From NCBI GenBank assembly GCA_029948415.1, contig JAJIZT010000001.1, positions 397,429-461,428 on the forward strand: a stretch of 64,000 bases of DNA, in the 5' to 3' direction. Each line of letters opens with the position of its first letter. The stretch's first letter is position 1. Below are positions 22,861-61,175 of this stretch, in pieces. Origin of the DNA: Cenarchaeum symbiont of Oopsacas minuta (GTDB lineage Archaea; Thermoproteota; Nitrososphaeria; Nitrososphaerales; Nitrosopumilaceae). The translations under genes were made by a program, and so were the position numbers. The notes below the pieces were generated by a model, which was not told the DNA's origin, ran no database searches, and saw only the letters and a program-made list of their open reading frames with translations.

Positions 22861-22941
22861 GTATGAGGTCAGCTATTCTGCATTTTTGTGCGTAAATACA
22901 GAACTTTTTTGATAATTATATGCAGGGACGTGACCTCATAC
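22861..22941. mobile_element. 81-bp MITE-like element with terminal inverted and flanking direct repeats
   Basis: Ends are GTATGAGGTCA and TGACCTCATAC (11-base perfect inverted repeat), flanked on both sides by the direct repeat CCCACGCC (22853-22860 and 22942-22949), as an 8-base target duplication would be. Related copies: 44412-44488 and half at 37249-37284. It ends 49 bases before the amoA ATG and only 17 bases before its TATA box. Confidence 0.85.
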
Positions 22942-37245: not shown

Positions 37246-37248
37246 GCA

Positions 37249-37284
37249 TTTACGCACAAAAATACAGAGTAGCTGACCTCATAC
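37249..37284 (-). mobile_element. Half of the MITE-like element
   Basis: Reverse complement of the left part of the 22861 element, ending with TGACCTCATAC at 37284. It begins right after the IS110 copy B end, as if the IS had inserted into a MITE copy. Confidence 0.75.
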
Positions 37285-37291
37285 TTTTTAG

Positions 37292-43426: not shown

Positions 43427-43936
43427 ATGTTTGGTAGTAAACCTGAACTAGAGGAAGGTCAGTATGTATTTGCTACCGTGGGCGATAAAAAATATCGTGA
43501 CTTTGTAATAGGTGCTGTAACTGGAATAGAAAATGAAAAAATAGGTGTAAATGGAATTCTTGTAAAACCAGTAGGATTGAAAAATAAAGTTGAACAAAAT
43601 AAAGCAGGACCTCGCTCTGATGAAATATTGACAAATCCAACTTCAGAGAACTGTATCTTTTCTCTAATTTACAGGATAGAGCATGAGAATTTTACTGGCA
43701 TACTAGATGAAAAAGACAACCGTATAGAACACATTCCACCTAGCACATATGCAATTCTTGATGGCTGGATACGTGAATCTCTACCCGATCTGATAAATAC
43801 AGTTCTCTCTTTGAGTGCTGGAGATGATAGAGACAAAGCAAAATCGATACTACGAAACAAAATGGAATCATTACACAATAAGAGATTGCGAAGAAATCTA
43901 TATTCTGTATGTCGTAGTTTGAAAATATTAAACTAG
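43427..43936 (+). CDS. Protein of unknown function
   Basis: 169 residues, soluble, with a beta-rich first half (EGQYVFATVGDKKYRDFVIG) and helical end (DRDKAKSILRNKMESLHNKRLR). Convergent with rpl12. No family recognised. Confidence 0.72.
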   Translation: MFGSKPELEEGQYVFATVGDKKYRDFVIGAVTGIENEKIGVNGILVKPVGLKNKVEQNKAGPRSDEILTNPTSENCIFSLIYRIEHENFTGILDEKDNRIEHIPPSTYAILDGWIRESLPDLINTVLSLSAGDDRDKAKSILRNKMESLHNKRLRRNLYSVCRSLKILN

Positions 43937-43975: not shown

Positions 43976-44278
43976 TTATCCAAACAATGAAGAGAGACCT
44001 TCCATTGCTTCATCTGCAGATTTTGCAGTCTCTTTGGGTTTTTCTTCACTCTTTGCTTCTTTTGCATCGTCTTTGGCTGTAGGTGCTGCTGCTACCGCTG
44101 CTATTGGTGCTGCCTTTACAGCCTCGTCAATGTTGACGTCTGCAAGTGCGGCCACTAGTGATTTTACTTGTGCCTCGTTTATATCGATACCTGCTGCCTT
44201 TACAACAGAGGAGATATTTTCTTCACTGACATCTTTTTGCAATTTGTGTAAAAGCAGTGCCGCATAGACGTATTCCAT
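43976..44278 (-). CDS. rpl12: 50S ribosomal stalk protein P1 (L12)
   Basis: From ATG at 44278: MEYVYAALLLHKLQKDVSEENI, helical dimer domain, alanine-rich hinge, charged part and the terminal factor-binding motif MEGLSSLFG. ATG 44278 is chosen because TATA (44301-44308) is 26 bases upstream and archaeal P1 starts MEY. In most archaea it follows rpl10, but here it is about 7.8 kb away. Confidence 0.95.
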   Translation of the reverse strand: MEYVYAALLLHKLQKDVSEENISSVVKAAGIDINEAQVKSLVAALADVNIDEAVKAAPIAAVAAAPTAKDDAKEAKSEEKPKETAKSADEAMEGLSSLFG

Positions 44279-44300
44279 GATTAAAGGCTTTTCGGACATA

Positions 44301-44308
44301 ATATAAAA
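44301..44308 (-). promoter_or_regulatory. rpl12 TATA box
   Basis: TTTTATAT on the minus strand is centred 26 bases before the chosen ATG. It gives rpl12 its own promoter, needed because it is no longer next to rpl10. Confidence 0.6.
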
Positions 44309-44411
44309 CTATATGAAATCTAGATTATGTGTAAAACATGGAGAGATTGAATGGGCATTGATGATCTTACATCAGCAGAGATGACGGACATTAAAATAAA
44401 AGGAAAAAACA

Positions 44412-44488
44412 GTACGAGGTCAGCTACGTATTTTTGTGCGCAAATGAAGAACTTTCTTGATAATTATAGGCAGGATGTGACCTCATAC
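44412..44488. mobile_element. MITE-like element, copy 2
   Basis: Ends GTACGAGGTCA and TGACCTCATAC, interior similar to 22861-22941 (TTTTTGTGCGCAAAT, TTGATAATTATA). The flanks do not show a clear duplication. It lies between rpl12 and the methylase island. Confidence 0.82.
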
Positions 44489-44665
44489 TTTTAAAGAAAT
44501 TTTATCTAGATGGCGTACGGAACATTCGACTTCTATGCGCTAATGGAAAACTGTGATCAACAATACATAAAGATAGGAATATGGTCATGTTTGAAATATT
44601 GTCTATTTTGATTCAGATTAACAAAGTATGGGAATTGTTATATTAAAAAATAATGAAGCGGTTGT

Positions 44666-47600
44666 ATGAATATGGATACCAAAGTATCACATCTTATTTC
44701 AAAGATGGGATTTGAGCATTCTACAGGAAAAAATACTACAATAGGTGGACAGCTAAAAAAAGAGTGGAATGCAATTCATTTTGATGCACATATTGGGATA
44801 TATCACATCACAATCCAGTCAAAGGATACTCTAAACATCGTTGTAAAAACATTATCAAGGATAGAACGGTACATTGCAATAGTTACTAGAGATAATGATT
44901 TAATGGTTTTAGTTAAAACTAAAAAAACAAGCTCTAAAAAGAAAGTCAAATTAGAAGATGTGATACACAAAATCAAATTAGATCATAAGACATATGATAA
45001 TCTCTCTAGAATATTATCAAAACATGCTAAATTTACATCAAATGTATTACAAGCAAATGCCAGTCTCCAACTTATTCTTAGAGAACTAGATACAATAAAC
45101 GAAGATTTCATAAACAGAGGTTTACTATCTACACATTTCCTGAAAACAAACATGATCACCATGATGAAAAAAAGAAAAAGGAATGTAATATTAGAAGGCG
45201 AGAATTTTTTTCCACATTTGAGTACCAAATATGAGGATGTAGAAAAAACTCTGGTAAATCTAGGACATCAGATCAAAAATATCGACACAGATACGATTAA
45301 TGTTGATGGAATGTCTGTGATATCCGTTGATTATCCAAATTTAGATCAAAGACACAAAGACCGAACTCCTACATTTGAAGCAGTAGCAATGCTCGAAAAA
45401 TCCGAATGGGTAGTGCTTACAAACGGCAAGACTTGGAGAATGTATTCGCAACATGCATCATCTGTCAGCACCGACTATCTTGAAATTGATTTGGATGGCA
45501 TTGCAGACAAGAGTGATTCAAGACTAAAGTATTTTGTTGCAATATTTGGTGCTTTTTCTCTAAAGAAAAAAGATGGAATTACCGATCTAATGTCATTGAT
45601 GAACGGTGGGAAAGATTATGCAGTTGAAATACAGAATGACATAAAGGAAAAGATTTTCAATGAAGGTTTATTCTTAAATCTAGTAAAAGCAGTATTAGAT
45701 TTTGATCCTACCATAAAATACACACATGCAGAGCTAACAAATGCGAAAGCACTTTCATTAAAGTTGCTATATCGACTATTATTCATTTTGTATGCTGAAT
45801 CAAGGGATCTTTTACCTGTAGATGATGCAGGATATCAGAGTATGGGCTTGCGTACTATTAGGGATGCAATTTCTACATATGAAAAAACTGGTGAAAGTAC
45901 TACATGCTGGACTCGCTTGAAAAAATTGTTTCATGCGATATCTGTCGGCGACTCAAAATCAAACCTTCCACAATACAACGGTAATCTGTTTGCAAATTCT
46001 GATTTAGATCTACTTGATAGAGTAAAAAACAAACATCTTGTACCTGCAATACTTGGATTAACAGAAATGAAAGGTAAAGGAATAGATTATTCAAACCTCC
46101 AAGTTAGACACCTTGGAACTATATATGAAGGCTTGTTGGAGTATATGGTAGTTCAGGCTACCACAAAGATGGTCATATACAAGGAACAGATACTTGATGC
46201 AAAATATACGGAAAATATGAAGGAAAAACCAAAAGGATTTGTTGGCAATGGCGAAATATATCTTACCATTGGTGGGTTTGCAAGAAAAAGCTCTGGCAGT
46301 TATTTTACTCCTCCACCTTTGGTAAAATTTCTAGTGCGTCAAGGTCTTAAAGATGTGCTAGAAAAACGTGAACAGCAATTTGATGAGATGATAAAAAATA
46401 GTAAAAACGTCAAATTACTTGAAGATATTCTACTCGATTTACAGATAATTGATCCATCAATGGGTTCTGGACATTTTCTTGTTGACGCAGTGGATCAAAT
46501 AACGCGTTGGGCAATGAATGTTATCCGCAGGCACCCAAATGCTCCAATAAATAAAGAAATAGACAAGATCATAAAGGATGTAATATCTGAAAATAAAAAG
46601 AAAAAAATAATAATAAACCCAGATTTGCTTACCGCAAACTCTATACTAAAAAGAATGATAATGAAGAGATGTATATACGGTGTAGACCTGAATCCTTTGT
46701 CTGTAGATCTTGCAAAGCTCTCCTTATGGTTGGATTCATTTACAATAGGTATGCCATTAACTTATCTTGATCATCATATAAAATGTGGAAATTCTTTGAT
46801 TGGGGTTCCTCCAAGACAACTCAATAAAACCATGGTAAATAAACAAAATACTTTAACTTCAGAATTAACTGTTCAATCCATGTTAAAAGATTTTACACTA
46901 GTTAGCAAAAAAGATGTAAAAAATATAACCCGTGCAGGCAATATGATGCAGAAAGTTAATTCTAGTACCGATTCTACCATAACGATGTTTACTTCTAGTC
47001 AAGAAACACACAAAACCATAGAAGAAACAATGATGGATTCAAAACATGTGCACGATCTAAAAATTGCACATATTATAAATGAAGAAATTCATGACGATAT
47101 GAAATATGATCTAGATTCTACTAGTACACAAAAAGCATCCAATCTCGCATATATGCATAATTTCTTTCATTGGGATTTGGAATTTCCAGATGCATTTTCA
47201 GATAAAAGATGGGGATTTGATCTTGTAATTGGCAATCCTCCATGGGACAAATTAAAACCAAAAGATAGTGAGTTTTTTTTACAACATGATCCCAATTTTG
47301 GTTCATCAAAAAATAAAATAAAAACAAATAAACAAAAGAACAAATTACTTGAAAATACATCAATTAAAAATATGTACGTACAATATGTAGATCATATTAA
47401 AAACCAGTCAAAATATTTTAAATCTGAATATAAACTTCAAGATAAAGGGGATATTGATCTATGGTTGCTTTTTACCGAAAGAATATTTGATCTTTGTACG
47501 GAAAATGGAATGGTATCTGTACTTTTACCATCAGGTATTATTGGTAGCCAAGGTGCACGTAAATTACGTGGTAAAATATTAGATAATAAAATAATTTCAT

Positions 47601-48733
47601 TATATGAATTTGAAAATAGGATGAAAATATTTGATATTCATAGTAGCTATAAATTTGTTTTATTAACAATGCAAAACAGCAATCCAACACCAGAATTCCC
47701 AGCTGCATTTTACTTGCATGATGCAAATTCATTAGATAAACACATTGAACAAGAGAAATTTCTATCAATGCCTGTAAAATTTATCAAAAATGCAAATCCA
47801 GAAAATATGACTATTTTTGAGCTACGGCATAAAAACGATGCTGAAATATTAAAACAAATTTATTCTCATAATAAAATATCTGATGGTTTTGATGATGGTA
47901 CAAAAATAAATTTTGTTCGAGAATTTGATCGTACGAATGATGCAAATTTATTTACCACAAATGGAAAAGGTTGGCCAGTCATAGAAGGAAAAAATATTCA
48001 TCAGTTTCAATACCTATTCACAAAAGCTGATCTTAGTATATCGAAAATGAATCTATCTGAAAAAATCACAAAAAAGTCATTATATGGAAATATGGGCACA
48101 AAGTTCATCAATTCATATCGTCTCATATATCGCATGGTTGCTAGTAGCACAAATCTAAGAACTATGATATCGTGCATCATTCCTCCAAGTAATGCTACTG
48201 CTCATTCTACTTCTATAATATTATTAACTAAAAATAATAAACCGATAATTGATTATGGTAAAATATTATATCTTGCAGGCATTTTTAATTCATTTGTTTT
48301 TGATTATATCATTAGATTCATGGTCGATGTGAATTTAAGCAGTTTTATTATAAAACAAGCTCCTATACCATGTTCAATATTTATTAATGATATAACAAAA
48401 CAAGCATGTAGACTATCATTATCTGAAAAGATATTTCACGAGTTGGCCATACAGCTAAAATTTAAAATTAAACACATATCAACACCAGCCGATCGAATAG
48501 ATACATTGGCCAAACTTGATGCACTAGTAGCGCATGCATATGGTCTAACAAGAGAACAATACAAACACATTATATCGACTTTTAAATTCGGTGAAGATCC
48601 TGACATGTATACGGCTAAAGAAATTATATTAAATAATAAAACATTAAAAAATCTATATGGTGAAGTACGAAAACGCGTTCTCAAACAATATGACTATATA
48701 TCTTTAGAATTATCACAGGAGATCAAAAAATGA
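44666..48733 (+). CDS. Large Eco57I/PglX-type adenine-specific DNA methyltransferase
   Basis: 1355 residues. The N-terminal third has a segment (TFEAVAMLEKSEWVVLTNGK) like the HsdR-N-type region of type IIG enzymes. The methyltransferase core follows: SSGSYFTPPPLVKFLV (about 543), motif I IDPSMGSGHFLVDAV (about 595), YGVDLNPLSVDLAKLSLW, and catalytic motif IV LVIGNPPWDKLKP (about 856). The last third resembles a target-recognition region. A TATA box (TTATATTAAA) precedes the ATG by about 25 bases. The gene starts a defence-like module with the next two genes. Confidence 0.92.
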   Translation: MNMDTKVSHLISKMGFEHSTGKNTTIGGQLKKEWNAIHFDAHIGIYHITIQSKDTLNIVVKTLSRIERYIAIVTRDNDLMVLVKTKKTSSKKKVKLEDVIHKIKLDHKTYDNLSRILSKHAKFTSNVLQANASLQLILRELDTINEDFINRGLLSTHFLKTNMITMMKKRKRNVILEGENFFPHLSTKYEDVEKTLVNLGHQIKNIDTDTINVDGMSVISVDYPNLDQRHKDRTPTFEAVAMLEKSEWVVLTNGKTWRMYSQHASSVSTDYLEIDLDGIADKSDSRLKYFVAIFGAFSLKKKDGITDLMSLMNGGKDYAVEIQNDIKEKIFNEGLFLNLVKAVLDFDPTIKYTHAELTNAKALSLKLLYRLLFILYAESRDLLPVDDAGYQSMGLRTIRDAISTYEKTGESTTCWTRLKKLFHAISVGDSKSNLPQYNGNLFANSDLDLLDRVKNKHLVPAILGLTEMKGKGIDYSNLQVRHLGTIYEGLLEYMVVQATTKMVIYKEQILDAKYTENMKEKPKGFVGNGEIYLTIGGFARKSSGSYFTPPPLVKFLVRQGLKDVLEKREQQFDEMIKNSKNVKLLEDILLDLQIIDPSMGSGHFLVDAVDQITRWAMNVIRRHPNAPINKEIDKIIKDVISENKKKKIIINPDLLTANSILKRMIMKRCIYGVDLNPLSVDLAKLSLWLDSFTIGMPLTYLDHHIKCGNSLIGVPPRQLNKTMVNKQNTLTSELTVQSMLKDFTLVSKKDVKNITRAGNMMQKVNSSTDSTITMFTSSQETHKTIEETMMDSKHVHDLKIAHIINEEIHDDMKYDLDSTSTQKASNLAYMHNFFHWDLEFPDAFSDKRWGFDLVIGNPPWDKLKPKDSEFFLQHDPNFGSSKNKIKTNKQKNKLLENTSIKNMYVQYVDHIKNQSKYFKSEYKLQDKGDIDLWLLFTERIFDLCTENGMVSVLLPSGIIGSQGARKLRGKILDNKIISLYEFENRMKIFDIHSSYKFVLLTMQNSNPTPEFPAAFYLHDANSLDKHIEQEKFLSMPVKFIKNANPENMTIFELRHKNDAEILKQIYSHNKISDGFDDGTKINFVREFDRTNDANLFTTNGKGWPVIEGKNIHQFQYLFTKADLSISKMNLSEKITKKSLYGNMGTKFINSYRLIYRMVASSTNLRTMISCIIPPSNATAHSTSIILLTKNNKPIIDYGKILYLAGIFNSFVFDYIIRFMVDVNLSSFIIKQAPIPCSIFINDITKQACRLSLSEKIFHELAIQLKFKIKHISTPADRIDTLAKLDALVAHAYGLTREQYKHIISTFKFGEDPDMYTAKEIILNNKTLKNLYGEVRKRVLKQYDYISLELSQEIKK

Positions 48734-49326
48734 GGCCAACTATAATTGATAATAAAGATATAAAGATGTATAATTTTGTATCTGAAAAAATCACAGCAAA
48801 CGATCAGCTCCGTATTGCCTCTGGATTCTTTAATGTAGGGGGATACTCGCTCTTATCAGATGCCATAGGTACATTGGTAAGCAAAGGTGGCAAGATACGT
48901 GTTATAATCGGAAGAGAATCCATAGAAAAACACAGTACCATAAATTATGTTGAAAAATCACTACATGAAGATATGGCCATTGCATTTGATGCATCTGGCG
49001 TAAGAACAGTAAATTCTCTCATATCCCTGATAACAAACAAAAAAATGGAATTTAGAAAATATACTGAAAAATTCCATCATGCAAAATGCTACATATTTGG
49101 ATCAAAAAATGACAATAATTCTGCCACTGCTATCGGTTCTAGCAATTTTACTAGGGCAGGCCTTACCGCAAATGTAGAGCTAAATCTAGTCACGTACGAA
49201 CCACCATCAATCGAATTATCTGAAAAATGGTTTGAGCAAAGATGGAAAGAATCTACAGATATTTCAAAGAACTTGTACACATATTGGAAGAATCAAAATT
49301 CGGCAAAGTCTTGGAACCCTATATGA
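48730..49326 (+). CDS. PLD-superfamily nuclease-like ORF
   Basis: 198 residues with the HKD-type motif HHAKCYIFGS (about residues 117-126) and GSSNFTRAGL. It overlaps the methylase by 4 bases (ATGA). Its end overlaps the helicase start by 85 bases in another frame. The frame of the last 30 residues departs from the usual sequence and the helicase frame (YFKELVHILEESKFG...PYMMYLK) continues the family pattern, so PLD and helicase seem to be one split protein. Confidence 0.85.
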   Translation: MRPTIIDNKDIKMYNFVSEKITANDQLRIASGFFNVGGYSLLSDAIGTLVSKGGKIRVIIGRESIEKHSTINYVEKSLHEDMAIAFDASGVRTVNSLISLITNKKMEFRKYTEKFHHAKCYIFGSKNDNNSATAIGSSNFTRAGLTANVELNLVTYEPPSIELSEKWFEQRWKESTDISKNLYTYWKNQNSAKSWNPI

Positions 49327-52004
49327 TGTATCTAAAGATACTCTATGAATATCACAAACAAAGAATACTCGACATGATCAACGCCAAAAAAGATTCAAAA
49401 CCATTACATGGGGCAAAACTTGCATCATTTCAAACAGACGCAGTGGTATCAGCAGTGCGCATTATACGAGAATATGGAGGAGTCATTATCGCAGATTCTA
49501 CTGGTCTTGGAAAGACGCACATTGCGATCGGATTGCTACGTAAACTAGCAGGATTGGAAGGTAAAAAAATCCTACTTTTGGCACCTGCTCAAATAATACG
49601 AAGCATGTGGACTAGTAAGCTTGATCAAGAAACTAGCATGAACATAAAGACGTTATCAATTGAAAATACTGGAAGTGGCAAATTTGATCCAACAGACTAT
49701 CACAAATATGATGCAGTATTGATAGATGAATCCCAAAACTTTCGAACCTACAACACCGCTCGTAGAATTGCAGTGATGAAGCTATTGCAATCTGGCAAAC
49801 CAAAAAACGTGATATTGATGACTGCCACGCCGATAAACAACCGGTTGCTAGACGTATATCATCAATTATCACTAATCACGGCAGGAGATGATTCTCATTT
49901 TGCTAGCATGGGCATATACGATATTTATAAGCACATTCGAAGCGCGGATCGTGAAAAAAACTTTGAAGATGGAGTTACACAGATGGTGCCACTGCTTGAT
50001 GAAATAATGGTTCGAAGAACTAGAAATGTTATCGCAAACAACTATCCAGATGAAAAAATAGCTGGTAAAAAATTAAAATTTCCAAAATCCACTCTCAGCC
50101 CAGTACATTATGATGTCGCAGATTCATACAAACAAGTATACCAAGACATAGTGAACGTGATGGAAAAAGTGGCACTAGTTCCATACAGGGTTGATTATTA
50201 CAAAAGGGATAAAACCGACAAAGAAAAAGAAAACATCGACGTTATTGCAAGACTACAGAAAATATTGCTTTTAAAGAGATTTGAATCATCACATAGAGCA
50301 GTTGAACTCAGCGTGAGCAACTTGTATAGACTGTATGATTATTTTGCCAAATCCATGAATGAGGGGAAATTCATCACAAGTAAGGCACTCCGAAAAATAT
50401 TGACCAAATATGGGACAGAGATTTCAAACGAGAAATTTGTAAATGCCATTATAGAAAACAAAGAACTCGTTGAATTTGATAGTGTCCAGTATGATACTAA
50501 CAGTATGCAGCAAGATCTAAAAGAAGACATGAAGATAATATCAAGACTACATAAAAAATTAAATGACATCGGTGGAATTGAAATCGATACATTTGATCCA
50601 AAATTGGAAAAATTATTTGAGACGATAGACAAGGAAAAAGCACTAGAATCTGAGAGCAAAAAAGTGATAATATTCACAGGATTTACAGATACTGCCAAGC
50701 ATATCTACAAACACATATGCAAAAGATATTCAAATTATAATATCGTACTAATGAGCGGTGATACGCATATGGGCACACGCGAAAAATATCTAAAACTTTT
50801 CTCCCCGCGCTCTAATATCATTATAGAAGACGAAGAAGATGAAAAACAGGTAATCCAGGATAAAATAGAATCAATATGGAAAACAATAGACGATCGTTTC
50901 ATACACGCACACAATAAAACAAAGCAGATTGACATACTAGTTTCTACTGATGTGCTCTCAGAGGGTCAAAACATACAGGATTGTAATTATGTGGTAAATT
51001 TTGATCTCCCGTGGAATCCAATGAGGATTGTACAAAGAGTGGGCAGGGTTGACCGACTAAACACAGAACACGATACGGTGCATTCGGTGGTGTTTTTTCC
51101 AAATATAGAACTAAATGACTTGTTACACCTTACTGAAAAACTTCAGACTAAAATCGGTAAAGCTGGAGCTACTGGAACTGAAAATTCGTTACTTGGAGAA
51201 CAGGCAACTCCAAGATCATTTAATGTTCTAGTACACCGGATATCGCAGGGGGATAAGACGGTCATGAACGACATAGCCCGGATGGCTGACATTCTACCTG
51301 AAAATGACACGATGGGTGTTCTTATGCGTTTCATCAAAGAAAAAGGTTCAGAATTTCTAAACGATATATCTTTTGGGAGACGTAGTGGTAAAAAAACCGA
51401 TGGCCCTACATCGCTTATCATGGTATATGGGCAGTCAAAACATAACAAAATACATGTAATAACATATGACTATGCCAAGGCTAGATATGAAAATGTAAAT
51501 AATTACACAAAATTATTTGCTGATATACAATGCGATTTTGACGAGGAGACCGTACTTCCTCTTTCTGATGAAGAAGCCATACGACAAATAAATATCATAG
51601 ATCTGAGTGCACGAGATTACATTGTAGACCATCTAAATGATACACTGTCCAAACATGGAGCCATAAAACGAAAGAGGTATCAAGAGAAATTATTGGGGAT
51701 CATAAACGATGGTTCAGAGCAAGGTCTAGTTCGTATGGACGATGATGTGTTTACTCGAGCGTACGACATACTTGCAAAAAGGAATCTAGAGGGATATGAA
51801 GAAGATTTTGAAAATATGATTGACACATACGTTGAGACACAAGATATGGATGAATTGTCAAAAGATTTAAAGAAATTCGTACGTGTTAACCGCATACAGG
51901 AACTAGAAAGGATACAGAAAAAAGACGTTTTGGCTGAAGAATTGACGTTTATTGGATGTGAGTTTCTAGTTGGAAAGCATCCATTTGATCTTCGAATTCA
52001 ATAA
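49242..52004 (+). CDS. SNF2/DEAD-like helicase of the methylase-PLD module
   Basis: 920 residues with Walker A ADSTGLGKTHIAIGL (about 87), LIDESQNFR (about 162), LMTATPINNR (about 194), then a second helicase domain with IFTGFTDTAKHIYKHI and VSTDVLSEGQNIQ, WNPMRIVQRVGRVDR (about 597). The C-terminal third is unrecognised. Such PLD-helicase proteins accompany large adenine methylases in DISARM/BREX-like anti-phage systems; this locus lacks the DUF1998 gene of DISARM. Confidence 0.9.
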   Translation: MERIYRYFKELVHILEESKFGKVLEPYMMYLKILYEYHKQRILDMINAKKDSKPLHGAKLASFQTDAVVSAVRIIREYGGVIIADSTGLGKTHIAIGLLRKLAGLEGKKILLLAPAQIIRSMWTSKLDQETSMNIKTLSIENTGSGKFDPTDYHKYDAVLIDESQNFRTYNTARRIAVMKLLQSGKPKNVILMTATPINNRLLDVYHQLSLITAGDDSHFASMGIYDIYKHIRSADREKNFEDGVTQMVPLLDEIMVRRTRNVIANNYPDEKIAGKKLKFPKSTLSPVHYDVADSYKQVYQDIVNVMEKVALVPYRVDYYKRDKTDKEKENIDVIARLQKILLLKRFESSHRAVELSVSNLYRLYDYFAKSMNEGKFITSKALRKILTKYGTEISNEKFVNAIIENKELVEFDSVQYDTNSMQQDLKEDMKIISRLHKKLNDIGGIEIDTFDPKLEKLFETIDKEKALESESKKVIIFTGFTDTAKHIYKHICKRYSNYNIVLMSGDTHMGTREKYLKLFSPRSNIIIEDEEDEKQVIQDKIESIWKTIDDRFIHAHNKTKQIDILVSTDVLSEGQNIQDCNYVVNFDLPWNPMRIVQRVGRVDRLNTEHDTVHSVVFFPNIELNDLLHLTEKLQTKIGKAGATGTENSLLGEQATPRSFNVLVHRISQGDKTVMNDIARMADILPENDTMGVLMRFIKEKGSEFLNDISFGRRSGKKTDGPTSLIMVYGQSKHNKIHVITYDYAKARYENVNNYTKLFADIQCDFDEETVLPLSDEEAIRQINIIDLSARDYIVDHLNDTLSKHGAIKRKRYQEKLLGIINDGSEQGLVRMDDDVFTRAYDILAKRNLEGYEEDFENMIDTYVETQDMDELSKDLKKFVRVNRIQELERIQKKDVLAEELTFIGCEFLVGKHPFDLRIQ

Positions 52005-52111
52005 CTTGTATCATATAACCTAGTCACTCATCTCAAAAACCTCCAAAAATATACATCCAATACAATGTTTTACACAGAATCTATCTAGACAAAGATATTT
52101 GATGGCCACTG

Positions 52112-52966
52112 TTACTTTGATTCGTATTTTGCAGCAGATGCAACCAAAGATGCATGTGCATTCGCTTTTTGTAAAATAGGTTTGATTGTATCTTTTGTAG
52201 GGTATCCAGACTCTGTAGAGAGTGCTCTTGCATGACTTGATGCTTTTGCAAGTATCTGTTTGATGTTCTCTGCAGTAACATATCCTGCTTTTATTGAAAG
52301 CGCTATTGCACTAGCATGTGCCTTTGCAAACTCTTCTCTAACTGCTTGTACATCTACTGTGAGATCTTTAGCACTGTACATTATGCCATCTTCTAGAGCA
52401 CTATTGAGAGTAATTCCTGCCTCTATGGGCTTTATGTCGAGTTTTGTCAATAGAGCCGCGATCTTTTCAGGTACCGGCTCGCCTTTTTTGACTGGAGTCG
52501 TCTCCTCTGTAATCCAAATGGTTCCTTGATCTATCTTTGTAGGTATCTTTGCTTCTTTAAAGTCTGTAAGCATGGGTCCTGGAGCCACACCAGTATTCTT
52601 TGGTGGTACGACCACATCAATACTGGCAATGTCGCCTCCTCTTGCAGGCATCATTATTTTGTTTTTTGATAATAGTACATTGAGTTTGAATGGAGACATG
52701 TTTGTAAACAACAAAAGGCATTGACCTCCAAGACGTTCTGCCATATCTTTTAGATTTGATTCTTTAAAGGCTTTTTTGATCACACGGTTTTTGACGCTTA
52801 AAAATTCTACCTCACCTAGAAGTTTTTTACGCAAGTCTAGTATCTGTGATGCTCTAACTTTTTCCATCTTTACAAGTGCCAAAACTTTATATTTTTTTGG
52901 AAGTTCTTGAGCTTGTTTGTATACCTGTACTTTTTTTGCAGGAAATACAGTACTATTTTCTCTCAT
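52112..52966 (-). CDS. rpl10: 50S ribosomal stalk protein P0 (L10)
   Basis: 284 residues: KYKVLALVKMEKVRASQILDLRKKL, VKNRVIKKAF, GGDIASIDVVVPPKNTGVAPGP, and MLTDFKEAKIPTKI. The C-terminus ends ASAAKYESK without the acidic LF-containing tail that many archaeal P0 proteins carry. It follows rpl1 after 2 bases. Confidence 0.95.
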   Translation of the reverse strand: MRENSTVFPAKKVQVYKQAQELPKKYKVLALVKMEKVRASQILDLRKKLLGEVEFLSVKNRVIKKAFKESNLKDMAERLGGQCLLLFTNMSPFKLNVLLSKNKIMMPARGGDIASIDVVVPPKNTGVAPGPMLTDFKEAKIPTKIDQGTIWITEETTPVKKGEPVPEKIAALLTKLDIKPIEAGITLNSALEDGIMYSAKDLTVDVQAVREEFAKAHASAIALSIKAGYVTAENIKQILAKASSHARALSTESGYPTKDTIKPILQKANAHASLVASAAKYESK

Positions 52967-52968
52967 CT

Positions 52969-53628
52969 CTAACCTTTTTTCCTAGCCTGTATGACTTGTT
53001 TTATTATTGGTCCCATTGTGGTCTTTACCAAAACTCTTTTGATATTCTTTTCACCGTTTGGTAGTTTCTTTTCAACAGCATTTATTATTACAAGCGCGTT
53101 TGCAACCAAGTCGGCATCATCCATTCCCTCGTTGCCGATCTTGCATGACATTGCAAGTGAACTACGAACTCTGACACGAACCGAAGAACGAAACCTATCA
53201 AGAAATGATTCGATTGGTGCATTGAATGGAACCGGTGTGGGCATCTTACCTCTAGGACCTAGTATCTGTCCTAAAACTTTGCCGACTAGAGGCATCAGTT
53301 TTGTATCTGCTAGAAAGAAATCATATCTGCCTACAAATTTACGGGATTCTCGTTTGTTTGTTCCAAGCTTGTTTAACTCGTCAGTATCAACAACCATGTC
53401 CGCCTTTGCAGTCTTTGCTTTTAGATTCATATCTCCTGTGGCCATGACGCATACTAGGGCAGGAGCACTAGTTTTTGGGAGCTGTATGATCTCGTTTATG
53501 GCAAAACCCTTTTTGACATCAATGTCTTTAAAGGTCATTATCAGATCTATAGATTGTTTGAATTTGAGCTTTTTTGAGCTCTCTTTTGCCTTTTTTATCA
53601 TCTTTAATACCTCTGACTCATTTACCAT
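52969..53628 (-). CDS. rpl1: 50S ribosomal protein L1 (uL1)
   Basis: 219 residues with RKFVGRYDFFLADTKLMP, VLGQILGPRGKMPTPV and the C-terminal TTMGPIIKQ. uL1 forms the mobile L1 stalk and in archaea represses its own operon by binding its mRNA. A TATA-like TTTTAAATAG (minus strand, 53648-53657) lies about 25 bases before the ATG. Confidence 0.97.
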   Translation of the reverse strand: MVNESEVLKMIKKAKESSKKLKFKQSIDLIMTFKDIDVKKGFAINEIIQLPKTSAPALVCVMATGDMNLKAKTAKADMVVDTDELNKLGTNKRESRKFVGRYDFFLADTKLMPLVGKVLGQILGPRGKMPTPVPFNAPIESFLDRFRSSVRVRVRSSLAMSCKIGNEGMDDADLVANALVIINAVEKKLPNGEKNIKRVLVKTTMGPIIKQVIQARKKG

Positions 53629-53683: not shown

Positions 53684-54166
53684 ATGCTTATTAACAAACA
53701 AAACATAATTCAAGCGATGCGCACATTTGACGATTTGGACAAAAACATACTCACAGAACTCTCAAAGGACAGCTCTATATCCATCCCTACCTTGGCTCAG
53801 AAACTCAATTCTAAACAATCTGTTCTATATAATAGAATAAAACGGCTACGTGATACAGGCGTTATCAAGAAATTTACCATACTAGTGGATGATAAAGTAT
53901 TGGGCGTGGGTGTAAAGGCAACGATCGGTATATCTAGAAACCCAAAGGCAAAGGCGGAGATTCACAAAGAGTTGGAATTGACAAAAGAGGTGGATGAGAT
54001 ATCCGAAGTGACTGGCAGATTTGATATAATGGTTCATGTTAGAGCAAAAAACCTTGAAGAGTTACATAATATAGTAATAGAAAAAATCGGCAAGATAAAC
54101 GGTATAAATGATACAGAGACGTTTATAGATCTACAAAAAACAGAAAAAAACCCAGACTTTACCTAG
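53684..54166 (+). CDS. Lrp/AsnC-family transcription regulator
   Basis: The protein has an HTH region (DDLDKNILTELSKDSSISIPTLAQKL, then VLYNRIKRLRDTGVIKKF) and a RAM domain (VDEISEVTGRFDIMVHVRA). It is on the opposite strand between rpl1 and rpl11. ATG at 53684 fits a TATA-like box about 30 bases upstream; ATG at 53717 is an alternative. The long frame upstream of 53684 is antisense to rpl1 and not coding. Confidence 0.9.
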   Translation: MLINKQNIIQAMRTFDDLDKNILTELSKDSSISIPTLAQKLNSKQSVLYNRIKRLRDTGVIKKFTILVDDKVLGVGVKATIGISRNPKAKAEIHKELELTKEVDEISEVTGRFDIMVHVRAKNLEELHNIVIEKIGKINGINDTETFIDLQKTEKNPDFT

Positions 54167-54645
54167 GCAAATTTTTCGTCCCATTTACCATCGTTTATCT
54201 CGGCGGTGATCTCTGCGGGAGTTTTACCTTCTATCTTTATGCCCAGTGTACGACACGTTCCTAGTACAGATTTTGCAACCGATTTTATCGACGTGGCATA
54301 AGAGCTATCAATCTTTGTCTTTGCCACTTTAACAACTGTGTCCATCTTTATATCTGAAACCCATTCGGTACCTGTGGTTCCAGATCCTTTTTGAATCCCA
54401 GCATCTTTTAGAATTAGAGCTGACGTGGATGGAATTCCAATCTCGATCTCCCATTTTTTTGTTTCAGTATAGACTGTAACAGTAACTGGAACTTTCATAC
54501 CTTCAAAGTCTTTTGTCTTTTCGTTGATTGCGTTTATGATCTCCATAATGTTTACACCAAGTGGACCTAGTGCAGGACCCAAAGGTGGACCTGCCGAGGC
54601 TGCACCTCCAGTAACAAGTGATGATATCTTTTGATTTTCTGCCAT
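54163..54645 (-). CDS. rpl11: 50S ribosomal protein L11 (uL11)
   Basis: 160 residues: GGAASAGPPLGPALGPLGVNIMEIINAIN and SVLGTCRTLGIKIEG. It forms the base of the stalk with P0. ATG at 54645 (MAENQKISS) is preferred to 54654. Convergent with the Lrp gene (4-base overlap). Confidence 0.97.
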   Translation of the reverse strand: MAENQKISSLVTGGAASAGPPLGPALGPLGVNIMEIINAINEKTKDFEGMKVPVTVTVYTETKKWEIEIGIPSTSALILKDAGIQKGSGTTGTEWVSDIKMDTVVKVAKTKIDSSYATSIKSVAKSVLGTCRTLGIKIEGKTPAEITAEINDGKWDEKFA

Positions 54646-54673
54646 TATAAACACAAACCAATGTACATGAGAT

Positions 54674-61052: not shown

Positions 61053-61175
61053 CCCAAGCTAGCTCAGCCTGGTAGAGCTTCCGGCTGTAGTTGTCGGCTG
61101 AGGCTGACCGAATAACAGCATATCAGGCATACAGAAACCGGGTTGTCGCAGGTTCAATTCCTGCGCTTGGGACCA
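61053..61175 (+). tRNA. tRNA-Tyr (anticodon GTA) with intron and encoded CCA
   Basis: Acceptor CCCAAGC/GCTTGGG gives C1-G72, the archaeal tRNA-Tyr identity pair. The anticodon (61087-61089) is followed after position 37 by a 46-base intron (61091-61136). The T arm is GCAGG-TTCAATT-CCTGC. Discriminator A (61172) is followed by genomic CCA (61173-61175). Confidence 0.95.

Follow-up and report, generated by a model that had tools for sequence, protein, structure and literature searches.

A probable horizontally acquired restriction-modification module between rpl12 and rpl10 in a Cenarchaeum symbiont of Oopsacas minuta

It is well known that type IIG enzymes carry their own nuclease in the methylase polypeptide, and that the DISARM gene set places the DrmA helicase and DrmB (DUF1998/MZB) beside PLD and methylase genes. 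According to the accessible part of PMC12839542, Type-2 BREX-related (BR) systems have an HKD nuclease N-terminal to a Swi2/Snf2 helicase together with an N6-methyltransferase, and a defence resembling restriction-modification (RM) has been proposed for them. In the ATP-dependent RM systems CglI and NgoAVII, as far as the available part of PMC4267653 describes them, the R and N proteins are separate and cooperate with ATP. Here we analyse an island of three open reading frames (ORFs), predicted to encode an Eco57I-type DNA methyltransferase, a PLD nuclease domain and an SNF2-family ATPase, which spans positions 44666–52004 on the plus strand between the ribosomal stalk genes rpl12 and rpl10 of Cenarchaeum symbiont of Oopsacas minuta. 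The window, i.e. the whole analysed stretch of 64,000 nucleotides, corresponds to positions 397429–461428 of contig C1 in a genome (G000) of 1.63 Mb, assembled in 11 contigs and 96% complete. We consider it probable that the island is a horizontally acquired ATP-dependent RM module, in which the SNF2 motor would load on DNA, the PLD domain would cut it if unmethylated and the methylase would mark self. A horizontally transferred anti-phage module had already been supposed in the initial annotation of this DNA, and family matches, patchy distribution, GC content and a phylogenetic tree support a horizontally spread defence module, probably of restriction type. No paper naming a methylase paired with PLD-SNF2 came up in our literature search; none was found combining ammonia-oxidizing archaea, SNF2 and L12, and none relevant to the order of rpl12 and rpl10.

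Predicted enzymes and their motifs

Only three plus-strand ORFs of at least 80 amino acids are present in the rpl12–rpl10 interval, and the ORF list together with Pfam places a methylase, a PLD protein and a SNF2 protein where the initial annotation had located them. The first ORF (44666–48733, 1355 amino acids) is assigned by Pfam, PADLOC and its motifs to Eco57I-type DNA methyltransferases, probably acting on N6 of adenine. The second (48730–49326, plus strand, 198 amino acids) contains a PLD (HKD-type) nuclease domain according to Pfam, and the third (49242–52004, plus strand, 920 amino acids) is classified by Pfam, PADLOC and motifs as an SNF2-family ATPase/translocase with a C-terminal region. 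The methylase and PLD ORFs overlap by 4 nucleotides, and the PLD and SNF2 ORFs, lying in differing frames, by 85 nucleotides. Pfam E-values were 8e-24 for Eco57I, 4.9e-16 for PLDc_2, 4.1e-21 for Helicase_C and 4.7e-12 for SNF2; the methylase also matches the MmeI methylase domain, and the NgoFVII-type restriction-endonuclease PLD domain was registered in the PLD ORF at 27.3 bits with a cut-off of 23.8. Sequence searches in PDB led from the SNF2 ORF to RapA and DEAD-box-type helicases and from the PLD ORF to a restriction endonuclease, at E=0.0047 only, and gave no match at E≤1 for the methylase.

The methylase retains the motifs DPSMGSGHF and NPPW, the PLD ORF retains HxK, GSSN and E, and the SNF2 ORF retains GLGKT, DESQ, TATP and QRVGRVDR (motif names are used here as in common practice). 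Family matches and motifs thus identify the enzyme families, and comparison with relatives shows that the gene pairing is conserved in the clade. In the aligned N-terminal nuclease-like stretch of the window methylase no (D/E)xK triplet was found by alignment alone, and the protein's own N-terminal nuclease looks dead in the window. Among twelve homologous methylases this stretch contains no such triplet in five and at least one, at varying positions, in seven.

Fused and split forms of the second gene

In close homologues a methylase of about 1330–1425 amino acids is followed by a single PLD-SNF2 polypeptide of about 1050–1110 amino acids. Nine modules form the own-phylum clade, and in seven of them (G022, G001, G509, G386, G259, G143 and G013) both domains reside in one ORF; that of G013 is cut by the contig end, with no methylase on its contig, and the contigs of G509 and G386 include only the C-terminal end of the methylase. 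The exceptions are the window and a decayed copy in G006 (L103), where the module, methylase included, is distributed over at least six matched ORF pieces and the PLD and SNF2 ORFs are separate. The two genes abut or overlap by a few nucleotides in all six own-phylum relatives with a visible boundary (G022, G001, G259, G143, G509 and G386). Judged by these alignments, the “three genes” of the window are a system that elsewhere has two genes, the second of which appears here in two frames. The initial annotation had described an overlapping plus-strand unit of three genes; three overlapping ORFs are indeed there, but three genes as the ancestral state are not supported. The fragmented module of G006 has the appearance of a decay stage of the system.

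A wider scan with one genome per species covered the best 80 of at least 554 confirmed relatives (at least 588 stretches). Farther out the pairing is looser among the matches listed: the genes abut in L126, L134 and L149, and several loci have 1–3 kb between them. Within the same set, SNF2 matches exceed 100 bits in 97 ORFs, some places being counted twice under two locus ids; the PLD query is matched as well by 54 of these, all of which have HxK..GS[SA]N. Among the remaining 43 are truncated contigs, the G006 pieces, more distant families and the ORF of the window itself. A second copy of the module is present in the same genome (C2, L105, 4955–11627), where a diverged methylase of 1137 amino acids accompanies a fused PLD-SNF2 protein of 1088; IS110-type transposase fragments and a weak DDE match lie a few kb off.

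Fused homologues read through the point at which the window changes frame, and this point corresponds to the linker between the PLD and SNF2 domains. Although comparison with relatives reveals no frame break in twelve conserved neighbouring genes or in the two long ORFs, and a chance error would need to hit the linker, a one-base assembly error in an ordinary fused PLD-SNF2 gene is a serious possibility, to which we give somewhat less than an even chance: the single ORF is the form seen in seven of the nine own-phylum modules (one of them truncated where its contig ends) and also in the second copy carried by this genome, just one frame step is involved, and among the window ORFs of at least 100 amino acids the sole other same-strand overlap of at least 40 nucleotides is an antisense one inside a longer ORF. 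Reading of the overlap revealed no canonical X XXY YYZ heptamer, so that a programmed −1 frameshift as the link between PLD and SNF2 is not favoured. By analogy, the products of the two ORFs could serve as subunits acting in trans, and such a split form can work in principle because in CglI/NgoAVII R and N are distinct proteins (PMC4267653, available part). A bolder scheme would be a three-subunit ATP-dependent restriction system born by natural fission of a PLD-SNF2 gene, in which the site would be recognised by a nuclease-dead type-IIG-like methylase, with distinct PLD and SNF2 proteins assembling on this methylase. Such a system would have reached the CglI/NgoAVII layout convergently, starting from another ancestor, and the stalk locus would have been rebuilt around it. 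We regard this scheme as rather unlikely.

Quite unlikely, in our opinion, is that the restriction gene is simply broken in this strain, so that the frame step kills restriction and leaves an orphan methylase heading to decay as in G006. Such a fate would be in line with the G006 module, found in pieces with separate PLD and SNF2 ORFs, and with the long branch of the window SNF2 protein in the tree considered below, but apart from the frame step the methylase (1355 codons) and the SNF2 gene (920 codons) have uninterrupted frames, and the examined motifs are retained in both. The linker between the domains, where the step occurs, makes up little of the gene, and a start codon lies upstream of the step, so that both domains remain whole.

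Signs of transfer and the rearranged stalk locus

Sequence comparisons support horizontal transfer of the module in general, because its distribution is patchy, its GC content is low and the tree mixes two families. SNF2 was found in seven of 250 family genomes at E≤1e-40 and the methylase in five of 398 phylum genomes at E≤1e-30, the own genome included in both counts. The GC content of the island is 33.5% versus 38.1% in the remainder, and only five of 226 sliding stretches were as GC-poor, every one of them overlapping the island. The SNF2 tree was built from 31 rows, 14 of which have deviating composition, and 10 of its 28 inner branches are unresolved; in it G509, a member of the own family, does not group with its congener G386 but joins G143 and G259, which come from another family, at 100/100. 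The window's genus is represented by no further genome among the relatives compared or in the family rows shown, where most rows lacking a match are not listed.

The island is bracketed by a 19-nucleotide inverted repeat (44321–44339 and 52065–52083), which occurs exactly at only these two places in the genome. With 2–3 mismatches the pattern is found at 12 more genome places, versus five for the reversed-pattern control. Its length is beyond chance, since none of 1000 resampled edge pairs reached 19 nucleotides (maximum 18). Terminal repeats, a duplication of the breakpoint and a binding site are candidate explanations. At the left edge, where the initial annotation had noticed a MITE-like copy, there is a copy of a miniature inverted-repeat transposable element (MITE; 44412–44489, plus strand) with imperfect 11-bp terminal inverted repeats. 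The own genome contains at least 41 copies of this element family, 77–85 bp long, with 11-bp terminal inverted repeats and the ends GTATGAGGTCA/TGACCTCATAC; another copy in the window occupies 22861–22941 and part of one 37247–37289. Target duplications of 8 bp (no more than one mismatch) flank 21 of the 41 copies, 18 of them exactly, as compared with an average of 0.6 for re-paired flanks, and 249 other genomes of the taxonomic family gave no match to the element at E≤1e-6. The copy at 44412 has no target duplication, which is no evidence for a MITE-driven rearrangement, because 19 other copies of the 41 are likewise without it.

The stalk gene rpl12 (43976–44299, minus strand) encodes a P1/P2-type protein (Pfam PF00428). 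To its left, a conserved ORF of 169 amino acids (43427–43936, plus strand), located in relatives by tblastn maps, serves as a boundary marker; on the right the boundary is formed by rpl10 (52112–52966, minus strand), assigned by Pfam and gene order in relatives, and beyond it ORFs occupy the positions of rpl1 (52969–53628, minus strand) and rpl11 (54163–54654, minus strand). That the DNA is archaeal is evident from the families of its rpl12 and rpl10 proteins. By coordinates, 34 of 40 relatives have rpl12 and rpl10 on a shared contig; four of the others carry them on different contigs (G002, G032, G034 and G040), and in two one of the genes was not found (G013 and G028). The two genes are separated by no more than 1 kb in 30 of the 34 (exceptions G001, G003, G006 and G007), in agreement with the normal adjacency assumed in the initial annotation, but the pair is convergent in 32 of them (exceptions G001 and G006) and it is rpl12 that is flipped here. 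In 19 of the 22 relatives having both, the exceptions being G001, G006 and G015, rpl12 follows the marker ORF on a common strand, whereas in the window rpl12 faces the opposite way. The start of rpl12 common to relatives is probably at 44278. Within 45 nucleotides upstream of this conserved start the window and 19 of 22 relatives (all except G010, G015 and G018) have the core TTTTATATT, which in the window belongs to a TATA-like element at 44300–44315 of the minus strand. The core being kept upstream of rpl12, the gene and its promoter therefore moved as one unit: judging by this element rpl12 is flipped in the window while keeping its native promoter, and the “new promoter for rpl12” supposed earlier has to be abandoned.

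Thirteen intervals between rpl12 and rpl10 were inspected ORF by ORF, and nine of them contain a gene of about 210 amino acids on the rpl12 strand, located beside rpl12 in G003. All three of those scanned with Pfam correspond to PF03458 “Gly_transporter”, a family which we take to be TRIC-type channels. With the G014 copy as a query no match was found in the own genome, which is 96% complete, in a search that had no control genome. The interval of G003 (L085/L086) holds about 26 kb of mixed genes, and that of G007 (L098) about 10 kb, including glycine-cleavage P and T proteins and a lipoate ligase. In G006 and G001 rpl12 is on the rpl10 strand, with other genes within the interval. Modules of G022, G001, G006 and G143 are located elsewhere than at the rpl10–rpl12 locus; the contigs of G013, G509, G386 and G259 do not extend far enough for certainty. 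The interval, interrupted by other genes in four of the 34 relatives (G001, G003, G006 and G007), may be an insertion-tolerant spot. Elsewhere in the window, at 61053–61172 of the plus strand, Rfam registers a 120-nucleotide tRNA match (48 bits) that is absent from the ARAGORN list and perhaps represents an intron-containing tRNA.

Kinship with described systems and supposed mode of action

For the window methylase the PADLOC model of type IIG (401 bits) exceeded DrmMI (232 bits), and for the SNF2 ORF “HKD+Snf2” (C3a139, 154 bits) exceeded DrmD (102 bits); matches of the PLD ORF were weak (PbeA, the best, 46 bits and DrmC 29 bits), and PglX models gave 28.5 bits or less for the window proteins. 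“HKD+Snf2” was also the best model for all five fused PLD-SNF2 homologues. The DISARM and BREX models of NCBIfam remained under their cut-offs (114 bits of 610 for DISARM_DrmD, 18 of 133 for DrmC and 44 of 500 for BREX_1_MTaseX). Thus, the search with DrmMI, DrmC, DrmD and PglX models suggested in the initial annotation left all four outscored or weak for the window proteins, but among three homologous methylases DrmMI was the best model for two and type IIG for one. The absence of the DUF1998 gene, recorded there too, holds for the island, the sole MZB match of the genome being about 60 kb away. A DUF499 ATPase gave no match in the own genome in a search that matched one of 14 control genomes. 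By sequence the parts of the module are kin to DISARM parts, but the DISARM gene set is not present, and membership in a DISARM- or BREX-like system, as first proposed, is not sustained. A degenerate DISARM or BREX locus is very improbable, since the DrmMI and DrmD scores, the weak DrmC/PglX similarity and the DrmMI preference of two homologous methylases are set against higher type IIG and HKD+Snf2 scores for the window proteins, NCBIfam models far under their cut-offs and an island with neither a DUF1998/MZB gene nor any further gene.

Three assignments were considered and rejected. DISARM lacks its drmA/DUF1998 partners in the island, and DrmMI, DrmC and DrmD are outscored for the window proteins; for BREX the PglX/MTaseX scores are low and there is no further island gene, PglZ/BrxC not having been searched elsewhere in the genome; for Type-2 BR, DUF499 was not found in the own genome.

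Based on enzyme classes and on analogy, the island, as an ATP-dependent RM module, would most probably act as follows. The Eco57I-type protein, whose enzyme class is shown by family matches and motifs, would recognise a DNA site, probably via its C-terminal part, and would methylate adenine on host DNA to mark self. By analogy with CglI/NgoAVII, the SNF2 motor would be loaded at unmethylated sites and translocate in an ATP-dependent manner, and unmarked DNA would be cut by the PLD domain, probably acting as a dimer. Arrival of the module between rpl12 and rpl10 was probably one event or a series, in the course of which the PF03458 gene was also lost and rpl12 was inverted along with its promoter.

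Several observations weigh against this interpretation. The island is without a recognised integrase or transposase, and no target duplication was seen on reading its ends; the window branch in the SNF2 tree is long (0.96); the split between PLD and SNF2 may reflect a mutation that inactivates the gene, or an error in the sequence; many bacterial PLD-SNF2 loci among the matches listed, contig ends included, have no adjacent methylase match; and with (D/E)xK triplets in seven of twelve homologous methylases a dead nuclease is not a demonstrated family trait. If the interpretation is right, the methylase and PLD-SNF2 pair would be a compact ATP-dependent RM module, and it poses the question whether recognition (methylase) and destruction (PLD-SNF2, or PLD and SNF2 apart) can sit on separate proteins. 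The locus itself provides an example of a ribosomal stalk gene flipped together with its promoter beside a defence module; its more ordinary side is the frequent movement of defence genes.

Among described systems, type IIG enzymes of the MmeI-Eco57I kind share with the island a large Eco57I/MmeI-type methyltransferase, but the window protein has no (D/E)xK in the aligned stretch and has a PLD-SNF2 partner. PADLOC C3a139 “HKD+Snf2” has the identical two domains in the identical order, and this order is observed in the window; the domains are in one polypeptide there, whereas the window has two ORFs, possibly owing to a sequence error. The HKD-Snf2 plus methylase logic of Type-2 BR is comparable to the window module, but that system, as presented in the accessible part of PMC12839542, is centred on a DUF499 ATPase and has DUF3780, and the window island has no further gene. 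PbeA of Pbe/CxC-ABC is likewise an HKD nuclease fused to an SF2 helicase, but its partners are an ABC ATPase and a DndE-like protein (PMC10853773, available part), and the island has no gene besides its own three ORFs. CglI/NgoAVII resembles the window in keeping the PLD nuclease and the SF2 helicase on separate polypeptides (PMC4267653, available part). What is unusual is the setting of the module; its machinery varies a type already known.

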